NCBI GenBank assembly: GCA_963205275.1
Contig: CAUJIH010000097.1
Span: 1-64,000 of the forward strand
Direction of reading: 5' to 3'
Source of the DNA: Verrucomicrobiota bacterium
GTDB lineage: Bacteria > Verrucomicrobiota > Verrucomicrobiia > Verrucomicrobiales > DEV007
DNA: 64,000 bases
The notes below the pieces were generated by a model that made no database searches, had not been told where the DNA came from, and saw only the letters and a list, made by a program, of their open reading frames with translations. Position 1 is the stretch's first letter; every line of letters begins with the position of its first letter. Of this stretch, positions 7,141 to 18,750 are shown one piece after another. Both the position numbers and the translations under genes were made by a program.

Positions 7141-7346
7141 GCGCATCACGGCTCGCGGCTCGCGGCTAGTGGCGATCCAGGCTCCGGTCATCCTGATAGG
7201 TCAGAATCGCTAGGCAGAGAGAGGCAGGCAGCAGCTCACGACTACGAAGTGAATCGAGTCTCTGAAATCTTCCGAGGATTTGGAATCCGCCACTTCCATC
7301 CAAATCTGCTGATTCCATCGCTGTCTTTTGAAGCGTGCTCTCGCCT

Positions 7347-8915
7347 TCAACACGAAAATCGATCTTCGCCTGGTGTGCTCCCGCTTTCGCGAGAGCATTG
7401 TCCGGTGGCGGCAAGATGATTCAGGCAGTGATAGACTTCTTCGATATCTATTTCACCCAGAGTTTCCGCCATCCGCTCAGCAGTGTAGCCTGCGGAGCCG
7501 GTCTCGGAGAGGTGTCGCCTTACTTTTGACAACTGAGCGAGGAATGCGGTGGCGGCTTTTTTCCCTGCTTCGACACCAGGTTGATGGTAGGCGTTGATGT
7601 GGACAAGGCTGGCGTAATAGGACACAGCGCGTTCATACAGTGCGATGAGCATCCCCAATGTGAAGGGAGTCAGTTCGTCCACTGAGATCGTGATCGACGG
7701 GCGTCCGCTCTCAGCGAGGGCGCGTCGCGTGCCGCGCAAAAATCCTTGGAGATAGTCGCCAGATGTCGAACCCTCCTCATCGACCCCATACGATATATCA
7801 GCACGAGTGCGCCGAATCTCGATGAAGGTAGCGAAGAAGTTCGGTAACCCATCGCGAAGCTGTTGTACGTAGGCGTGCTGGTCGGTCGAACCCTTGTTCC
7901 CATAGACAGCGATTCCTTGGTTCACCAGATTCCCATCGAGATCGAGTCGCTTACCCAAGGACTCCATTACGAGTTGCTGGAGATATTTGCTCATCAGATC
8001 GAGTCGGTCGCAGTAGGGCAGGATCACCATATCCTTTTCTCCTTTCCCGTTCCCTGCATGATACCACATCAGGGCGAGGCGCATGGCGGCATTGACGCCC
8101 TCATCGGCGATTCGGGTTTTCTCGTCCATCGAGGCCGCCCCGGCGAGAAAGGCGTCGATGTCGATCCCGAGAAGTGCGATGGGTAGCAGGCCGACAGCAC
8201 TCATGACAGAGGTGCGTCCTCCGATCCAGTCGGACATGGGGAAGCGAGTGATCCAGCCTTTCGCTTTCGCATATTGATCGAGATGGCTACCGACTCCGGT
8301 GACGGCGACTGCGTGCTTTGCGAAATCCAGTCCTTTCGCCTGAAAGACTCGTTCTGTTTCGATCATTCCGTTGCGCGTCTCAGCCGTTCCGCCGGATTTG
8401 GAAATGACGATTACGAGGGTTTCTGCCAGTCCCTCGCCCAGTGTGTGGAAAACGTCGTCCATTCCTCCGGGATCGGTATTGTCGAGAAAGTGAATATCGA
8501 TTCGAGCGTCTTTGGGTAGCAGGGCCTTCGCCACGAGTTGTGGCCCCAAGGCCGATCCGCCGATTCCGATCAGCAGCAGGTGGCGGAAGGGCTTCCCTCC
8601 GGGATCTGTAATTTCTCCTGAGTGAACGCGAGCGGCAAATTCCTGAACAGCCGATTTTGTGTCGCGAATCCATCTCCCTTCCTCTTCAGGGGCGATCTCA
8701 GGCTTTCGCAGCCAATAGTGGCCGACCATCCGATTCTCGTCAGGATTCATGATTTTCCCCGCTTCGATGTCTGCGATGTCGCGAAAGCCGCGCTCGATGA
8801 GTGTGCCGATCTCCGCTGGCCACTCGTCGGGTGCGCCCATCAGGCTGCTGTCGAGGGAAAAACCGAGTTCAGGATAGCGAATCACAGATTTCTGAAAATG
8901 AGTCCAATCGTTCAT
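7347..8915 (-). CDS. pgi: Glucose-6-phosphate isomerase
   Basis: The enzyme interconverts glucose 6-phosphate and fructose 6-phosphate in glycolysis and gluconeogenesis. The SIS-type sugar-phosphate sites are visible as LLIGIGGSALGP and VISKSGGTAETRN, and the later signature regions (DRLDLMSKYLQQLVMESLGK, then the NQGIAVYGNKGSTDQHAYVQ segment with catalytic His) are intact. I start at the ATG at 8915 (MNDWTHF); the track's extra 36 residues overlap the divergent gene and are not family-like. About 522 residues suits the shorter bacterial type. The start faces the Dabb gene across about 50 bases, so both share a promoter region. Confidence 0.93.
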   Translation of the reverse strand: MNDWTHFQKSVIRYPELGFSLDSSLMGAPDEWPAEIGTLIERGFRDIADIEAGKIMNPDENRMVGHYWLRKPEIAPEEEGRWIRDTKSAVQEFAARVHSGEITDPGGKPFRHLLLIGIGGSALGPQLVAKALLPKDARIDIHFLDNTDPGGMDDVFHTLGEGLAETLVIVISKSGGTAETRNGMIETERVFQAKGLDFAKHAVAVTGVGSHLDQYAKAKGWITRFPMSDWIGGRTSVMSAVGLLPIALLGIDIDAFLAGAASMDEKTRIADEGVNAAMRLALMWYHAGNGKGEKDMVILPYCDRLDLMSKYLQQLVMESLGKRLDLDGNLVNQGIAVYGNKGSTDQHAYVQQLRDGLPNFFATFIEIRRTRADISYGVDEEGSTSGDYLQGFLRGTRRALAESGRPSITISVDELTPFTLGMLIALYERAVSYYASLVHINAYHQPGVEAGKKAATAFLAQLSKVRRHLSETGSAGYTAERMAETLGEIDIEEVYHCLNHLAATGQCSRESGSTPGEDRFSC

Positions 8916-8964
8916 GATGAATTTTACTATCGACAAACGGCGCATTTTCACAAAGAATTTCCGA

Positions 8965-9348
8965 ATGAATCCTGTTCGCTCTCTTATCGCCCTGTTTCTG
9001 CTGATCGCCTGCCTTATCGCCACACCTCTGCGAGCGGGGGATGCACCCTTTCGGCACTTTGTTTCCTTTCAGTTCAAGGATGGCACAACGACGGAACAGA
9101 AGGCAGAAATCGTGAAGGCTTTCTTGGCGCTGAAAGGGGAGATTTCTACGATTCAGGATCTGGAATGGGGTGAGTCGGAGAATATCGAGCCGCTGGCGGA
9201 TGGTTTTACCCACTCCTTCCTTGTCAGCTTTAACAGCAAGGAGGGGCTCGCGACCTATCTGCCTCATCCGGCGCACCAGGCCTTCGTAGCAAAGCTGAAG
9301 CCGCTCTTGGCGAAAGTGTACGTCTTCGATTACACAGCGAAGAGGTAG
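8965..9348 (+). CDS. Exported Dabb-domain protein
   Basis: A signal peptide (LIALFLLIACLIATPLRAG) is followed by a single stress-responsive A/B-barrel (Dabb) domain: FRHFVSFQFKDGTT at the start and HPAHQAFVAKLKPLL near the end are its two hallmark segments. Dabb proteins are small dimeric ferredoxin-like folds. A few act as cyclases, but most, including the many exported planctomycete and verrucomicrobial ones, have no known role. I choose the ATG at 8965 because it places the signal peptide at the N-terminus; the track start at 8914 would overlap the pgi start codon. Confidence 0.8.
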   Translation: MNPVRSLIALFLLIACLIATPLRAGDAPFRHFVSFQFKDGTTTEQKAEIVKAFLALKGEISTIQDLEWGESENIEPLADGFTHSFLVSFNSKEGLATYLPHPAHQAFVAKLKPLLAKVYVFDYTAKR

Positions 9349-9355
9349 CGTAGCC

Positions 9356-9775
9356 TCAGATCACCCAGTCCACGCCTTCCTGCGGGAGCGGCATCATGTC
9401 AGCTAGGGTGATGATGCGGCACTCGTCCATCAGTGCTTCGTTTGCGCGGACCCAAGCATCGCGGACCCGACTGGCGGATTGACCTTTATTTCCGGGACTG
9501 CTCTCGATTAGCATTTCTCCCTCCATCGCGATCGCGATCTCGGCTAGACTGATCTCCATGGGGTGTCGTGCCAGCACGTAACCACCCTTTTTGCCACGTC
9601 GGCTAATCACGATGCCTGCTTGGCGCAGCGTAGTGAGGATCTGAACGAGGTAGTTGGGAGAAAGATGTTCGGCTACCGCTAGATCATCGACCTGCTGGAC
9701 ACCGGGTAAATCATATCGTGCGGCTAGTTGAGCAAGAACCTGGCACGCATATTCGGTTTTTAAGGGCAGACGCAT
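9356..9775 (-). CDS. Rrf2-family transcriptional regulator (CymR-like)
   Basis: This is an Rrf2 winged-helix regulator of about 139 residues: MRLPLKTEYACQVLAQLA opens the protein, LSPNYLVQILTTLRQAGI is the recognition region and GKKGGYVLARHP is the wing. Only two cysteines are present and the IscR three-cysteine Fe-S cluster is absent, so it is more like CymR or other sulfur-responsive members. It is divergent from cysI-cysJ with a perfect-looking operator between them, so it very likely controls sulfite reduction and its own expression. Start is taken at the ATG at 9775, the usual MRL beginning of the family. Confidence 0.85.
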   Translation of the reverse strand: MRLPLKTEYACQVLAQLAARYDLPGVQQVDDLAVAEHLSPNYLVQILTTLRQAGIVISRRGKKGGYVLARHPMEISLAEIAIAMEGEMLIESSPGNKGQSASRVRDAWVRANEALMDECRIITLADMMPLPQEGVDWVI

Positions 9776-9799
9776 TGGAAAAATTACTTGCAAAAACAC

Positions 9800-9829
9800 T
9801 TAGTGCAATACATTAGTATTTCACTAAGA
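9800..9829. promoter_or_regulatory. 30-bp palindromic operator between Rrf2 gene and cysI
   Basis: Left arm CTTAGTGCAATAC and right arm GTATTTCACTAAG pair at 12 of 13 positions around a four-base ATTA centre. The site lies in the only space between the two divergent genes and overlaps plausible promoter elements in both directions (for the minus strand TTGAAT, then TACTAA 17 bases on). Rrf2 dimers bind sites of this size, so it is the expected binding site of the adjacent regulator. Confidence 0.75.
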
Positions 9830-9869
9830 ATTAAAATTCAAATATTTTTCTCCCAATTTCTTCACGATC

Positions 9870-11717
9870 ATGGCTGAGTCATCCAACGAAGTCCTTAAAA
9901 AATCCAGCAACTATCTTCGCGGCACGATTCAGTCGGGCTTGGCGAAGGTGGTGAGTGGCTCCCTCACTGGCGACGACCAAAAGCTGACAAAGTTCCACGG
10001 GATGTATCAGCAGGATGATCGCGATGTGCGTTCCGAGCGTCGTCGGAAAAAGCTAGAGCCGATGTATTCGTTCATGATTCGCGTTCGAGCCACAGGGGGA
10101 GTGGCGACTCCGAAGCAGTGGCTGGAGATGGACCGTATCACCCGTGAATTCGGGATTGGATCGCTGAAAATCACGACTCGGCAGACTTTCCAACTCCACG
10201 GGGTGATCAAGGCAAACTTGAAACGTGTGATCCGCGAAATTAACGCGACTTTTTACAACACGATCGCCGCGTGCGGTGACATCAATCGGAACGTGATCTG
10301 CAATCCGAACCCGATTCAATCTCATGTACGCCAAGAGATTAATGATCTAGCGAATCGGATCGCTCGTCACTTGCTCCCGAGATCAGGTGCCTATCATGAA
10401 GTATGGATAGGCGATGACTCCGGGATCGAAGTAAAGCGCATCGAGCAAGATCCACCGAAGGTCGGCACTCCTGTCGATGATGTGGAACCGATCTATGGCA
10501 AGGCCTATATGCCGAGAAAGTTTAAAGTCGCGATCGCAGTGCCTCCGAGCAATGACGTGGATGTCTTCGCACACGACATGGGATTCATCGCGATTCTCAA
10601 CGAGACCGAAGACAAAATTCTGGGCTACAACGTCACGGTCGGTGGCGGAATGGGCATGACGCATGGGAAAGTTGCTACATTTCCCCGCCTAGCGGATGTG
10701 ATGGGCTTTTGTCGTCCAGAGGATGCTGTGGCGATTGCCGAATCGATTCTCTGCGTTCAGCGAGATCATGGGAATCGGGAAGATCGTCACAATGCTCGCC
10801 TGAAATATACTGTCGAGAAACTTGGCCTGGGTGGCTACCGCAGTGAGGTTGAAAAGTTGCTCGGCCATCCTCTGGAACCGGCGCGTCCCTACCACTTCGA
10901 GACGAATGGTGATCCCTATGGATGGAGACAAGATCACGCAGGAAACTGGCACTACGGTCTATTCATCGAGAGCGGGCGCGTCTGCGATACGCCGGATTAC
11001 CCTTTGATGACGGGTCTGCGAGAGATTGCCAAGATTCACAAAGGTGAATTCTGGATGACGACGAACCAGAATCTCATTATCGCCAACATTCCCCCGGAAG
11101 AAAAGCCGCGAATCGAAGCCCTAATGCAGGCGCATGGGATGTTTCAGGCGATTCAGAAAGGAGGACTTCGTCGTAACTCGCTCAGTTGCGTGGCGCTGCC
11201 GAGTTGTGGACTTGCTCTCACAGAGGCCCAGCGCTTTATGCCCGTCCTGATCGAGCAACTTGAAGAAGTGCTCGAGGAGGCGGGACTACGTCACGATGCG
11301 ATCACCATGCGTGTGACAGGCTGCCCCAATGGATGTTCTCGCCCCTACATTGCAGAGATCGCCTGCGTTGGAAAGGGTCCGGACATCTACAATTTGTATC
11401 TCGGTGCGGGCTTCGCGGGACAGCGGCTGAATACTCTCTACCGTGATTCGGTGCCGGGAGATCAGATTGCGACGATCCTGCGACCTGTGATTTTCGATTA
11501 CGCCCTCAATCGTCTCCCCGGCGAGCACTTCGGAGACTTCACGATTCGTGCTGGATATGTAGAGGCAACGGAGAACGGGAGGGATTTTCAAAAATCTCCA
11601 GAAGAGCGAGCGAAAGAACGAGCACTGGCTCTCGACATTCCAGAAATCGAAGATGACAGTGACTCCGATCCCAGCTCGGAGGCAGAGGCAGATCGGGTAC
11701 CCGTCAGAGTTCTGTGA
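9870..11717 (+). CDS. cysI: Assimilatory sulfite reductase hemoprotein (CysI type)
   Basis: This enzyme reduces sulfite to sulfide using siroheme and a 4Fe-4S cluster. The coupled-cofactor cysteines appear as SCVALPSCGLA and VTGCPNGCSRPYIAE, the (C-x5-C)...(C-x3-C) pattern of the family, and the siroheme-binding TTRQTFQLHGV segment is near residue 100. The two ferredoxin-like/siroheme half-repeats are complete. An acidic serine-rich extension of about 35 residues ends the protein. The flavoprotein partner cysJ follows 100 bases downstream, and the operon is preceded by the Rrf2 operator. With CysJ alongside, NADPH is the likely electron donor. Confidence 0.93.
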   Translation: MAESSNEVLKKSSNYLRGTIQSGLAKVVSGSLTGDDQKLTKFHGMYQQDDRDVRSERRRKKLEPMYSFMIRVRATGGVATPKQWLEMDRITREFGIGSLKITTRQTFQLHGVIKANLKRVIREINATFYNTIAACGDINRNVICNPNPIQSHVRQEINDLANRIARHLLPRSGAYHEVWIGDDSGIEVKRIEQDPPKVGTPVDDVEPIYGKAYMPRKFKVAIAVPPSNDVDVFAHDMGFIAILNETEDKILGYNVTVGGGMGMTHGKVATFPRLADVMGFCRPEDAVAIAESILCVQRDHGNREDRHNARLKYTVEKLGLGGYRSEVEKLLGHPLEPARPYHFETNGDPYGWRQDHAGNWHYGLFIESGRVCDTPDYPLMTGLREIAKIHKGEFWMTTNQNLIIANIPPEEKPRIEALMQAHGMFQAIQKGGLRRNSLSCVALPSCGLALTEAQRFMPVLIEQLEEVLEEAGLRHDAITMRVTGCPNGCSRPYIAEIACVGKGPDIYNLYLGAGFAGQRLNTLYRDSVPGDQIATILRPVIFDYALNRLPGEHFGDFTIRAGYVEATENGRDFQKSPEERAKERALALDIPEIEDDSDSDPSSEAEADRVPVRVL

Positions 11718-13627: not shown

Positions 13628-15538
13628 TTATGCCTCTGGTGAGTTCGTCGGCACTTGGTCGATGTCCTCGTAGAAATATTCTCGTGGGCGGTAGTATCGA
13701 GCGACGATCAGGAAGAGAAGTGCCGCGCCCAGCATCACAGCGGTAAAAAACCAGAAATAGCTGGCACCCTCTAGCTTCACTTGTCCACCTACGAAGTATT
13801 GGCGAGAAACGCTCGGCCCGCTCGTTGCCACCTGCGCCTCGGTCGGTAGTCCCAGCAATCCGCGCCTCTGATCCAGCCAAGTCCTCTCCGGCTGAAAGTG
13901 GGCTAGGAATTTCGCCAATGCTCCCGGGGGAGTCTCATCCGGACGAGAGATCGTGAGAATGACACCCTGATCCCATTGAGTCGGAGTCTTGCGATCCGGC
14001 CCCGCACTCCACACCCGGATGCGATTGCGATTCAGCACTTGGTAGCGGTAAGGATTTCCCCAAGGATCGGCGTGGGATGATGTCAGGGCCTGTCCTTCGG
14101 CATTGGAGGGCGTCGTGTATCCAGTATCGACGAGCTTCTTTTCGATCTCTTCCAAAATCAGATCAAGCCTTTCCCGATCAGCAAAGCGTAGGTCGATCGC
14201 TTTTCCGTCCTGATCGAAAATTACTCGCAGATCATCCTCAGTGCCAGAGATGCCGTCGAGTCCTCCATGCACGGCATAGCCATCCACAGCGTGCAAGCGA
14301 GCAAGGGGATTGGGCACCTGAATTAGTCCGTTGATCTGTGCTGTAAAGAAGTTGCCTGTGGCGACGGCGAAGAGCCACAGAGACATCACCATCGACTTCA
14401 TCGTGCGCGGAGCTTGGGAGTAACTAAATTCTAGGCTGACGATGGCGACCATCACTTCCGACGCAGTGAGCGCGATATAAGCTATGATTTGCCAAAGGAT
14501 CGACGGTGCCTGTCCAGCATCGATTTTCATCTGCACCAGAGCGATCAGTGCGAAGGCGAACACCATGATGAAAAGTCCGATGGCGATCTTTCGCAGTGGC
14601 GTCAGTGGATAGAATCGATCCACAATCGGATAGATGATATAAGAGAACAGAGGGATGAAGGTCAAAATCAGGATGGGATTCAGCGCCTGAATCTGACTCG
14701 GCAGCCAATTGATGCCCATCCAGTGCAGATTCATATTCTCCGCTTGGAGAACCCATGAGGAGCCGCTTTGATCGAACAGCGCCCAGAACATAGCGACGAA
14801 GACGTAGATCGAGCACAGCTTAGCGAGCGCCTTCAGTCCCTCTTTACCAAACATCTCCCGCAAAACCTCTTTCCCCCGAGGCGGAATGTGGACGAATTTC
14901 CATCGTCCTAGCCAGAAAACTAGCGTCGCGATAGCCATGAGAATGCCGGGGACGCCGAAGGCCCAATGCGGACCGTGCCACTCTAGGAGCCAGGGAGTTA
15001 GTAGCGTGGAGGCGAAGGCTCCCAGATTAATCGACCAGTAGAACCAGTTAAAGATTCGGGGCAAGAGGTGGCGATTGCGTGCTCCGAACTGATCGCCTAC
15101 GTGTGCTGAGACACAGGGCTTAATGCCGCCTGATCCCACGGCGATCAGCCACAGCCCAGCCATTAGCCAGGTTTCGACCTTCCCCACCGTGCCCATCAGC
15201 GCTAGCGCGGCGTGGCCGAGGCAGTACACCACCGACAGCCACATGATGATACGATATTTTCCGAAGGCGAAGTCGGCGAGGAAGGCTCCGAACACCGGAG
15301 TGAGATAGACGAGAAAGACGAAATCATGAAACCTCTTGGTCGCTTCTGCATCTCCCATCGCCTCTCCGGGCGTACTTCCCATCAGCCAAAGATAATTCGC
15401 CATGAAGACGGTCAAAATCGTCCTCATGCCATAGAAGCTGAATCTCTCCGCCGCTTCGTTACCGATGATGTAAGGCACACCGGGGGGCATTCCGCCCAAA
15501 TCCTTCGGGACGGTCGTATAGGTGGGCGCAGTCTTCAT
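13628..15538 (-). CDS. POT-family peptide/H+ symporter with an inserted pseudopilin-like domain
   Basis: The first ~400 residues form a POT (PTR2) major-facilitator transporter with the proton-coupling ExxER motif (NEAAERFSFYGMR) and the GGIKPCVSAHVGDQF signature, so it likely imports di- or tripeptides across the inner membrane. Between the penultimate and last membrane helices (about residues 410-590) sits a long soluble insert. It contains DPWGNPYRYQV followed by RVWSAGPDRKT, which matches the C-terminal calcium-loop region of GspG-type pseudopilins. A final helix (about 592-612) and an acidic tail follow. The insert uses the same codon style and is in frame, so it is not an assembly artefact in appearance. 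Substrate is unproven. Confidence 0.85.
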   Translation of the reverse strand: MKTAPTYTTVPKDLGGMPPGVPYIIGNEAAERFSFYGMRTILTVFMANYLWLMGSTPGEAMGDAEATKRFHDFVFLVYLTPVFGAFLADFAFGKYRIIMWLSVVYCLGHAALALMGTVGKVETWLMAGLWLIAVGSGGIKPCVSAHVGDQFGARNRHLLPRIFNWFYWSINLGAFASTLLTPWLLEWHGPHWAFGVPGILMAIATLVFWLGRWKFVHIPPRGKEVLREMFGKEGLKALAKLCSIYVFVAMFWALFDQSGSSWVLQAENMNLHWMGINWLPSQIQALNPILILTFIPLFSYIIYPIVDRFYPLTPLRKIAIGLFIMVFAFALIALVQMKIDAGQAPSILWQIIAYIALTASEVMVAIVSLEFSYSQAPRTMKSMVMSLWLFAVATGNFFTAQINGLIQVPNPLARLHAVDGYAVHGGLDGISGTEDDLRVIFDQDGKAIDLRFADRERLDLILEEIEKKLVDTGYTTPSNAEGQALTSSHADPWGNPYRYQVLNRNRIRVWSAGPDRKTPTQWDQGVILTISRPDETPPGALAKFLAHFQPERTWLDQRRGLLGLPTEAQVATSGPSVSRQYFVGGQVKLEGASYFWFFTAVMLGAALLFLIVARYYRPREYFYEDIDQVPTNSPEA

Positions 15539-15600
15539 AGAATCTTCAAAAACTGTCAGTTAAGCCGCGCCCCCGTCATTCGCGATCTAGGGTAAAAGGC

Positions 15601-16671
15601 TCATTCTCCCGTGACTCTTCTCGCCCAAGCAGCGGCACCCATCGCGCCTGCGCCGTCTGAAAAAGCAGCCGTGACAATACGTAAATTTTTTCGGTACGGC
15701 GGCAGAATACGCTGTCGTGTAGACTGCTCCACTGCCTCCAGATAGAGCTTCGGCATCGCCTCCACCAGTCCGCCTCCCAGAACGATCACATCGGGAGCCA
15801 TCAGGTGAATGATCGTCGCCACGCCGCAGCCGAGCAATACTGCCGCCCGACGCACGATGTGCTCGATCTCGATATCACCTGCAGCGATGGCCTTCGCCAG
15901 TGCTCCACTGGTGATTTTCGCGATGTCGGTGCCGCACTCGCTCAGCAGATGTGGTGCCAGCCCTCGGTAGGCGGCACGAGCTGCCTCGGCTGCGATTTTC
16001 AGACGCGAGCACTCCATCTCCAGCGTGCTCCCATGTTCCCCGCGACCGGATGTCTCCGGATACAGAGGAATATGGCCCAGTTCCATGCACGAAAGTTGAC
16101 TTCCCTGGAGTAAGTGACCATTGATCACCGCTCCTGCGCCGATACCTGTCCCTGGGAAAATGCCCACCGCGCAGCGAGAACCTTTTGCAGCTCCCTCCAT
16201 GTATTCCGCATAGACCCCGGCATCAACATCATTGCAAATGACGACTCGAGTTCCGAATGCTTTCCCGAGAGATTCGACCACTTTCACGTTCTTCCAACCC
16301 AGATTCGGAGCTTCTACGATCACCCCGCGAGAGGGATCAATCGGCCCTGGACAGCCGACGCCGATCGCGGCAATCCGCCTTTTTTCTACCTTAGCATTCT
16401 GAAGCGCCTGGCTGATGACTTCGGCCATCCGGCTGAGTCCAGCGGCAGCTCCCTTCGCTCCGTGGGTTTTCTTCTTTGCTTCACCGAGAACTTGGTAGTT
16501 TTGGTCGAACACTTTCGCCAGCATCTTCGTCCCGCCCAGATCAAAGCCGATCCATACGCGTCCATCTTCGACGCGGTAAGTGGCTACGTCCTCATCGAAC
16601 GAAGTCTTGGCCTCATCTTGCTTCTTCGGTGAGCGCCCACCAGACTTTTTCACTGCGGTCTTCTTGGTCAT
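15601..16671 (-). CDS. ROK-family sugar kinase lacking the zinc-binding cysteines
   Basis: The ATP-binding motif FDLGGTKMLAKVF (about residue 43), the catalytic region NDVDAGVYAEY and GIFPGTGIGAGAVING mark a ROK kinase, most often glucokinase or N-acetylhexosamine kinase. The usual CxCGxxGC zinc loop is replaced by SGRGEHGS, with the conserved histidine before it kept (ELGHIP). About 35 lysine-rich residues precede the domain. Its stop side continues alone, while its ATG overlaps the dxr stop by four bases, so it is co-translated with dxr. The sugar cannot be assigned; glucose is a fair guess with pgi nearby. Confidence 0.8.
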   Translation of the reverse strand: MTKKTAVKKSGGRSPKKQDEAKTSFDEDVATYRVEDGRVWIGFDLGGTKMLAKVFDQNYQVLGEAKKKTHGAKGAAAGLSRMAEVISQALQNAKVEKRRIAAIGVGCPGPIDPSRGVIVEAPNLGWKNVKVVESLGKAFGTRVVICNDVDAGVYAEYMEGAAKGSRCAVGIFPGTGIGAGAVINGHLLQGSQLSCMELGHIPLYPETSGRGEHGSTLEMECSRLKIAAEAARAAYRGLAPHLLSECGTDIAKITSGALAKAIAAGDIEIEHIVRRAAVLLGCGVATIIHLMAPDVIVLGGGLVEAMPKLYLEAVEQSTRQRILPPYRKNLRIVTAAFSDGAGAMGAAAWARRVTGE

Positions 16672-17837
16672 TGCTTTGCTATGATTTCCTCTGCGTAGAT
16701 TCGAGCCTCGCGGTCGGCCTCCATGATTTCATCGAGAGTCGGGTTCAGGATCACGTTGTGTTGAGCCATCGTGGCTTCCACTGTATGCCAGATTCTGGGA
16801 AAGCTTAGTCGTTCCGTCAAAAAGGCCTCGACTGCCACTTCATTCGCTGCATTGAGAACTCCGGGCAGAGTGCCTCCCGTCGCTCCGGCCTGTTGGGCCA
16901 GCCCCAAAGCCGGAAAGTGTTTCCAGCGCGGCGCTTCAAATTCCAATCGAGCCAGTGTCGCGAAATCCAGTGGGGTCAGGTGATTCCGGACTCGGTCTGG
17001 CCATGTCACGGCATACTGAATCGGGAAACACATGTCCGTCGTGCTCAATTGTGCCAGCACGGAGCCGTCCACGAATTCGACCATGCTGTGGACGATGCTC
17101 TGCGGATGCACGATCACATCGATCCGTGCCATCTCGATCCCGAATAACCACCGAGCTTCGATCATCTCCAGCCCTTTGTTAAAAAGAGTTGCGGAATCGA
17201 CCGAAATCTTTCGTCCCATATCCCAAGTCGGATGTGCCAAAGCATCTGCTACGGACACCTTGGCCAGTTGCTCGGCGGGAGTCTTCCGAAATGGTCCTCC
17301 TGAAGCTGTCAGAATCAAGCGCGAAACCTCCTCCGTCGAGCGCCCTTCGAGGCATTGAAAAATTGCGTTGTGCTCGGAATCGACCGGGAGAACGCGCACC
17401 CCTTTTCGTCTGGCCGCCTCCATCACCACAGCACCCGCCATCACCAGAATCTCCTTCGATGCTACGGCGATGTCTTTTCCTGCCTCGATCGCAGCGAGAG
17501 CAGGCCGCAACCCTGCCACTCCGACGATGGCGATCAGCACCAGATCCGCCTCCGGCAGAGTTGCCATCTCGATCAGTCCCTCGTCACCGCAGTGCAGCTT
17601 TGCTCCTTCAGGCAGGAGTGATTTCATCCGATCAAACCCTGTCGGGCAGGAGAGGCAGCCCTCTTTAATCCCGAATTCAGCCATCTGTGCCGCCAGCATC
17701 TCCGCGTTCTTGTTTGCCGCGAGGCCTACCAGTCTCATTCGGTTGGGTAGATCTCGCGCTACCTTCAATGAACTCTGACCAATGGAGCCGGTGGAACCGA
17801 GCACCACGACATTTTTAGGACGAGAAGAATCAGCCAT
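16668..17837 (-). CDS. dxr: 1-deoxy-D-xylulose 5-phosphate reductoisomerase
   Basis: This enzyme converts DXP to 2-C-methyl-erythritol 4-phosphate with NADPH, the committed step of the MEP isoprenoid route. The NADPH site is VLGSTGSIGQSSL, ASKEILVMAG is present, the metal/substrate residues lie in PVDSEHNAIFQ, and the flexible-loop TWDMGRKISVDSATL segment and NAANEVAVEAF are intact. Length (389) is standard. It lies 19 bases after cdsA and overlaps the ROK gene by ATGA. A cdsA-dxr order is common in bacteria. Confidence 0.95.
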   Translation of the reverse strand: MADSSRPKNVVVLGSTGSIGQSSLKVARDLPNRMRLVGLAANKNAEMLAAQMAEFGIKEGCLSCPTGFDRMKSLLPEGAKLHCGDEGLIEMATLPEADLVLIAIVGVAGLRPALAAIEAGKDIAVASKEILVMAGAVVMEAARRKGVRVLPVDSEHNAIFQCLEGRSTEEVSRLILTASGGPFRKTPAEQLAKVSVADALAHPTWDMGRKISVDSATLFNKGLEMIEARWLFGIEMARIDVIVHPQSIVHSMVEFVDGSVLAQLSTTDMCFPIQYAVTWPDRVRNHLTPLDFATLARLEFEAPRWKHFPALGLAQQAGATGGTLPGVLNAANEVAVEAFLTERLSFPRIWHTVEATMAQHNVILNPTLDEIMEADREARIYAEEIIAKQ

Positions 17838-17856
17838 ACAGCACTTAGGAGAGCAC

Positions 17857-18750
17857 TCAGGAGGCGAGCCGAAGAAAGAGATAGTAAACCGGTGCTGTGA
17901 AAATTAGCGAATCCACCAGATCCAGAATTCCTCCAATGCCCGGCATCATTCGACCGCTGTCCTTCACCGAAAGGCTCCGTTTTAAAATCGATTCACATAG
18001 ATCGCCCAGAATAGCGATCAGTGCCACCACCAATCCCAGCACTCCCGCAGAAATCGGTCCCACCAGCGGAATCCTGTCTCCCAGAAGCCACCAGAGGAGA
18101 TAACTGCCGAGGATGGCGAAGACTAGAGCGCCCCAGAATCCCTGCCAGGTCTTTCCGGGGCTGATGTGAGGAACCAGCTTCTGACGTCCGATCACCGATC
18201 CCACTAAATAAGCACCCGTATCGCTCGACTTTGTCAGCACGATGAAGTGAAGTAGATAATATGCGGCAGCGGGATAGCCTCCACTCGTCTCCAGTGGTAG
18301 CAGGAAAATCTTTGGGATGAAGGAAAGTAGTACGACGCAATACGTATAGCCAAAGATCGTCACTGCGATCTCATAGAGCGTGCGCTCCCCCTCCAGTGGA
18401 GAAAACAGTAGCGATCCGATGATGAGAACGAGCAGGACGAAGATCGAGAGGGGTGCCGCCTCGTCGATCCACGGTCCCTTTCCTCCGCAGAAGGCGATAA
18501 AAAATGTGAGCAGATACAGCGCGGCCACGAAAACCGTCTGGAGTCGAAAGCGGTGGAAACGTGGGTCGGAGAACAGGTGAAAATACTCCAGAAGCGCTCC
18601 CAGAGCCATCAGTGAGAAGAATCCCAGATACACCCGAATATCTCCCAGCCACAGAGTAAAACCAGTTACTGTCAGGATCACCACGGAACTAATCGAGCGC
18701 CGCAGTAGAATGCGGGCTTTGGAGGAGGGTGCGACTGATGATTCCGACAT
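17857..18750 (-). CDS. cdsA: Phosphatidate cytidylyltransferase
   Basis: CdsA makes CDP-diacylglycerol from phosphatidate and CTP in the inner membrane, feeding PssA above. The C-terminal signature is visible as ESILKRSLSVKDSGRMMPG followed by GGILDLVDSL, close to the PROSITE pattern S-x-x-KR-x4-KD-x5-PGHGG-x-x-D-x-x-D, with His and Arg changed (PGIGGILDLVD). About eight hydrophobic segments are present. It heads the cdsA-dxr-ROK run. The usual upstream uppS gene is missing; instead there is a roughly 300-base gap up to a divergent small gene. Confidence 0.9.
   Translation of the reverse strand: MSESSVAPSSKARILLRRSISSVVILTVTGFTLWLGDIRVYLGFFSLMALGALLEYFHLFSDPRFHRFRLQTVFVAALYLLTFFIAFCGGKGPWIDEAAPLSIFVLLVLIIGSLLFSPLEGERTLYEIAVTIFGYTYCVVLLSFIPKIFLLPLETSGGYPAAAYYLLHFIVLTKSSDTGAYLVGSVIGRQKLVPHISPGKTWQGFWGALVFAILGSYLLWWLLGDRIPLVGPISAGVLGLVVALIAILGDLCESILKRSLSVKDSGRMMPGIGGILDLVDSLIFTAPVYYLFLRLAS

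Follow-up and report, generated by a model that had tools for sequence, protein, structure and literature searches.

Introduction

Peptide transporters of the POT family are pharmacologically important, and many bacterial POTs carry the helices HA and HB between TM6 and TM7. The bacterial transporters PepTSo (2xut/4uvm) and PepTXc (6ei3) share the membrane domain and the E-x-x-E-R, K and E site residues with the protein described here, but they have no domain between TM11 and TM12 and possess HA/HB, whereas our protein carries an insert of about 178 aa between TM11 and TM12 and lacks HA/HB. A folded domain in an outward-facing loop, as found here, is known from the mammalian POTs PepT1 and PepT2 (SLC15A1/2), and extracellular domains of this type were described as completely absent from bacterial members (PMC4597091). 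The mammalian domain consists of two immunoglobulin-like folds between TM9 and TM10, whereas the bacterial insert is alpha/beta, pseudopilin-like and located between TM11 and TM12; we infer that the two are analogous in placement and not homologous. The literature searched contained no description of a POT with a T2SG-type insert, which is not proof of absence.

Pseudopilins assemble through a prepilin signal and an N-terminal helix. GspG, PulG and EpsG (T2SSG, PF08334; structures 3G20 and 1T92) have the element order helix-helix-beta-beta-Ca loop-beta in common with the insert, and both contain DPWGNPY, the pattern S-x-GPD-x4-T-x2-D and the same residues as calcium side-chain ligands. The insert differs from GspG in being embedded in a transporter without prepilin signal or N-terminal membrane helix, and in having an extra N-terminal hairpin with a second calcium motif as well as extra C-terminal helices and a strand. 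The side-chain ligands of calcium in 3G20 are D117, T122 and D125 within P-G-P-D-G-V-P-N-T-E-D-D (PMC3396595). The second motif is that of PERCAL, G-x-D-G-x-x-[GN]-[TN]-x-D-D, which was described in bacterial animal-type peroxidases and with which a peptide binds calcium at 33-79 uM (PMC3396595).

Results

The window, meaning the whole stretch of 64,000 nucleotides that was analysed, contains a complete transporter gene whose features are compiled in Table 1. The 636-aa product matches the PTR2 profile (Pfam, E 1.3e-87), has PepTSo (2xut) as its closest relative in the PDB and gave POTs throughout as top fold matches, with the MFS fold of 12 TM helices; the full-length AlphaFold2 model, based on 60 homologues, has a pLDDT of 88.8 and a pTM of 0.87. 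The E-x-x-E-R motif of TM1, the Lys of TM4 and the Glu of TM10 are all present, and the corresponding proton/peptide-site residues E28, E31, R32, K140 and E370 are invariant in the aligned set and kept in POTs with and without the insert. Judged by its sequence the protein is a putative proton-coupled di/tripeptide importer, which is probably functional because the residues of this site are conserved. Only about 19 residues separate TM6 from TM7, hence the HA/HB helices are missing. A frameshift or assembly fusion as origin of the composite protein was rejected, as the same open frame is found in same-genus genomes and in two phyla.

Table 1. Location of the transporter gene, the insert and their parts in the window.
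Feature	Residues	Position	Strand	Basis
POT/PTR2-family peptide transporter gene, complete		13628..15538	minus	636 aa, 12 TM helices
Stretch with clade-specific outer-rim positions	53-187	14978..15382	minus	M53, G54, M115, G116, G119, W187
TM11, upstream edge of insertion	378-405	14324..14407	minus	AF2 helix; alignment to insert-less POTs
Inserted domain, putatively extracytoplasmic	408-585	13784..14317	minus	alignment to insert-less relatives, both flanks conserved
Loop 1, GLDGISGTEDD, on beta hairpin	426-436	14231..14263	minus	exact PERCAL Ca motif
GspG-like pseudopilin core	455-531	13946..14176	minus	T2SSG Pfam 468-521; hhalign E 6.4e-14; AF2
DPWGNPYRY hallmark	491-499	14042..14068	minus	D491 58/60, G494 56/60, Y499 56/60
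Loop 2, GPDRKTPTQWD	513-523	13970..14002	minus	GspG Ca loop equivalent; D515, T520, D523 kept
C-terminal helical collar, W554-L-x-x-R-x-x-x-L-G motif	540-575	13814..13921	minus	W554 60/60
TM12, downstream edge	591-615	13694..13768	minus	AF2 helix; K-L-x-G-A-x-Y flank common to insert-less POTs

A sequence-only reading of the window had proposed a pseudopilin domain at 13769-14317 (minus), which corresponds exactly to residues 408-590 and indeed lies between TM11 and TM12, the last two helices; the two peptides on which it was based, DPWGNPYRY (491-499) and RVWSAGPD (508-515), are likewise exact. In close insert-less relatives the TM11-TM12 hairpin has a length of 5-10 residues, as opposed to about 178 aa here, and reads like FI-ENPDGTVKL-HGASYY. 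Since the flanks are conserved on both sides in these short relatives, the domain occupies the place of a 5-10 residue turn. According to the AlphaFold2 model the insert begins with a strand after TM11 and has alpha/beta content. In POTs the N-terminus is located inside the cell; the TM11-TM12 loop accordingly faces away from the cytoplasm, and the insert is thus presumably periplasmic, at the outer side of the inner membrane.

The Pfam family T2SSG (gathering cut-off 21 bits) matched the insert alone with E 8.2e-5 and about 23.1 bits (22.6-23.5), above the cut-off, and residues 468-521 of the whole protein with E 4.3e-4 and 20.7 bits, slightly below it. Among 60 homologous inserts T2SSG was found in 37 (best 3e-6) and was the sole recurrent family, all others being present in no more than two members. 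A profile of the inserts aligned by hhalign with a Verrucomicrobia GspG profile, which was built from 34 GspG-like sequences of related genomes, with E 6.4e-14, a score of 81 and a probability of 98. The best of 60 column shuffles reached only E 0.013 (score 19.6) and segments of the POT core E 0.33-0.58 (scores 10-12), by which a chance match is ruled out. Moreover, a T2SSG scan of the relatives' genomes flagged the same POT insert independently in several of them, and eight out of nine weak matches to PDB sequences (E 0.05-0.7), each weak individually, were of the same kind, namely GspG/EpsG-type chains. By these sequence comparisons the insert is homologous to the T2SSG/GspG head, and the similarity to T2SG suggested earlier is significant.

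In the AlphaFold2 model the core forms a confident domain with two helices (455-471, 479-486), two strands (498-503, 506-511), a loop (513-523) and a further strand (524-531), which is the element order of the GspG head. For the structural side of the earlier proposal the picture is mixed: the secondary-structure order agrees with GspG, but when the insert model was compared with the PDB by Foldseek, nothing was obtained at E <= 0.001, and no pseudopilin was among the 50 matches listed. It may be that the additional hairpin at the N-terminus and the helices at the C-terminus obscure the pseudopilin core in this search. Neither the sequence nor the model of the insert contains a prepilin peptidase signal or the N-terminal hydrophobic assembly helix. 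It is for this reason a pseudopilin-derived head rather than a pseudopilin, and capture of a whole pseudopilin was rejected. Binding to a pilus-like structure, which had been considered as a possible role, is unsupported because the insert is a globular head without these two elements.

The calcium-binding end of the pseudopilin, which the sequence-only reading had recognised, is kept in loop 2 with all three side-chain ligands: among the 60 homologous inserts the putative ligands D515 and D523 are present in every sequence and T520 in 59, and the Trp of loop 2 stands in place of D124 of 3G20, a non-ligand. Loop 1 precedes the core and agrees exactly with the PERCAL consensus, although the host protein differs; in its strict form the motif is found in 34 and in relaxed form in 57 of the 60 inserts. 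The insert would therefore, by its sequence motifs, be expected to bind calcium. Loop 2 was retained in 32 out of 33 verrucomicrobial and 14 out of 15 planctomycete rows, loop 1 in 31 out of 33 and only 6 out of 15, respectively. In the planctomycete sequence L208 (G781) both loops seem degraded and DPWG reads GPWG. As many planctomycetes have lost loop 1, and L208 both loops, calcium is not indispensable everywhere.

The C-terminal collar (about residues 537-576) has a pLDDT of 65-77 in the isolated insert, which rises to mostly 83-92 in the full-length model, and because of this rise in the context of the full chain the collar appears to pack on the membrane domain. Among the positions that best separated insert-bearing from insert-less POTs were G116, W187, K240, M53, M115, G119 and G54. 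Of the ten best separating positions, six are part of the outer rim of the N-terminal bundle, which comprises 48 of 423 positions (p 2e-4), whereby all separating positions stem from one clade and are not independent events. Taken from the changes in pLDDT and from conservation, the outer rim of the N-terminal bundle is the candidate docking face of the insert. The insert itself is tethered to the C-bundle, whereas the clade-specific positions cluster on the N-bundle rim, and together with the gain in confidence of the collar this suggests that the insert spans both bundles as a cap.

The insert is present in every full-length same-genus homologue that was read. In a sample of 388 genomes of the phylum it was limited to the order of the organism from which the window derives, with related POTs of the same order and class being devoid of it. 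Among the named carriers are Luteolibacter, Haloferula, Rubritalea, Roseibacillus and Persicirhabdus and, from the Planctomycetota, Pla163 and Phycisphaerales UBA3160. When 392 planctomycete genomes were sampled, about 20 further long insert-type ORFs came up amid many short POTs, of which 13 long and 18 short sequences were read. A tree was calculated from the membrane domain after excision of the insert, by a quick method without bootstrap and with an arbitrary root; in it, 47 of 48 sampled carriers from Verrucomicrobiota and Planctomycetota fall into one clade (SH-aLRT 99-100), and no loss of the insert was seen inside this clade. The remaining carrier, the planctomycete sequence L230 (G797), lies outside the clade; its insert occupies the same site and is T2SSG-type but divergent, and a second acquisition or recombination may be behind it. 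The interpretation of the insert as a general POT feature was rejected, given the ordinary insert-less POTs in related genomes of both phyla. L050, a candidate relative of TM11 plus insert, resembles a solute-binding protein by sequence, and its match was taken as chance. A plasmid search returned no record covering 80 percent of the query. In one locus (L044) an insert-type POT is split near TM11 into two frames of 395 and 243 aa, through a frameshift or an assembly error.

The transporter gene follows cdsA, dxr (ispC) and a gene for a ROK-family sugar kinase in a row (13628-18750, minus), with the result that a kinase and a peptide importer are placed beside lipid and isoprenoid genes. Across 80 loci this order recurs in the organism's own clade only. 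A functional link to the neighbouring genes was rejected, as no stable partner was recognised across these loci. We noted a secretin (GspD)-like ORF, judged by eye, at 7201-10066 (minus) of L118, near an insert-bearing POT of a Phycisphaerales genome.

Discussion

We propose that a working peptide importer gained a GspG-type pseudopilin head, without signal and membrane helix, most likely once, and that this happened in the TM11-TM12 hairpin of an ancestor of the POT clade of Planctomycetota and Verrucomicrobiota. The head would have kept its calcium site, a second calcium loop would have been added in front of it in most verrucomicrobial members, and calcium most likely stiffens the module. 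The helices following the core would rest the module on the outer rim of the N-bundle and thereby build a bridge from the C-bundle to the N-bundle, so that a cap or vestibule could arise above the peptide entrance and tune access or conformational switching. As a whole, this explanation of a calcium-stabilised pseudopilin-head cap, gained a single time and placed over the periplasmic mouth of the POT, is in our estimate somewhat likelier to be right than wrong, with the effect on transport being its most speculative part. That the captured head, by bridging both halves, makes peptide uptake or gating dependent on extracytoplasmic calcium is an unlikely extension; to our knowledge no POT transporter has been described with calcium-dependent regulation of this form.

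The main rival to the cap is a docking role, in which the calcium-stabilised insert would serve as platform recruiting a periplasmic peptidase, a peptide-binding protein or an outer-membrane uptake complex, whereby peptides would be produced or handed over beside the importer; a role of this type was proposed for the extracellular domain of mammalian PepT1/PepT2. The precedent comes from the family itself, as this outer domain binds trypsin and its removal leaves uptake unaffected (PMC4597091), and the conserved W554-L-x-x-R motif likewise speaks for docking. Against this, no recurrent gene for a peptidase or binding protein was recognised beside the transporter in the 80 loci, where the own clade offers only the cdsA-dxr-ROK kinase-POT order, and packing on the transporter itself can account for the pattern of conservation and confidence; we regard docking as not very likely. 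Still less likely, in our judgement, is a structural leftover that was inserted once and is tolerated in the hairpin as an element of folding or stability with no specific role in transport. A single clade would fit such a frozen accident, as would the calcium motifs that are variable or lost in some planctomycetes, but D515, D523, W554 and G513 are invariant in 60 out of 60 inserts despite a mean column identity of 36 percent, clade-specific changes have occurred on the outer rim of the transporter, and none of the 47 sampled members of the main clade has lost the insert. Contact of the head with the type II secretion pseudopilus, coupling uptake to hydrolase secretion, is highly improbable: the insert is homologous to GspG heads and most insert-carrying relatives encode GspG, but the prepilin signal and N-terminal helix are missing, genomes with GspG can have insert-less POTs (e.g. 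G045, G048), and no secretion genes adjoin the POT within the window.

A bacterial POT clade in two phyla has gained its own outer domain, in another loop and with another fold than PepT1/2, and close sister transporters without insert provide a natural comparison for the role of outer domains in POTs. The head of a secretion pseudopilin has found a second use as a module outside secretion, and the residues of the calcium site were retained. Three further short proteins, L054 (177 aa), L059 (248 aa, with a zinc-ribbon-like start) and L052 (234 aa), have a T2SSG-like head, apparently a single TM helix and no prepilin signal motif. From the heads without pilin signal in L054 and L059 of related genomes it follows that such reuse has seemingly taken place more than once, and the pseudopilin head seems to serve as a generic extracytoplasmic module.
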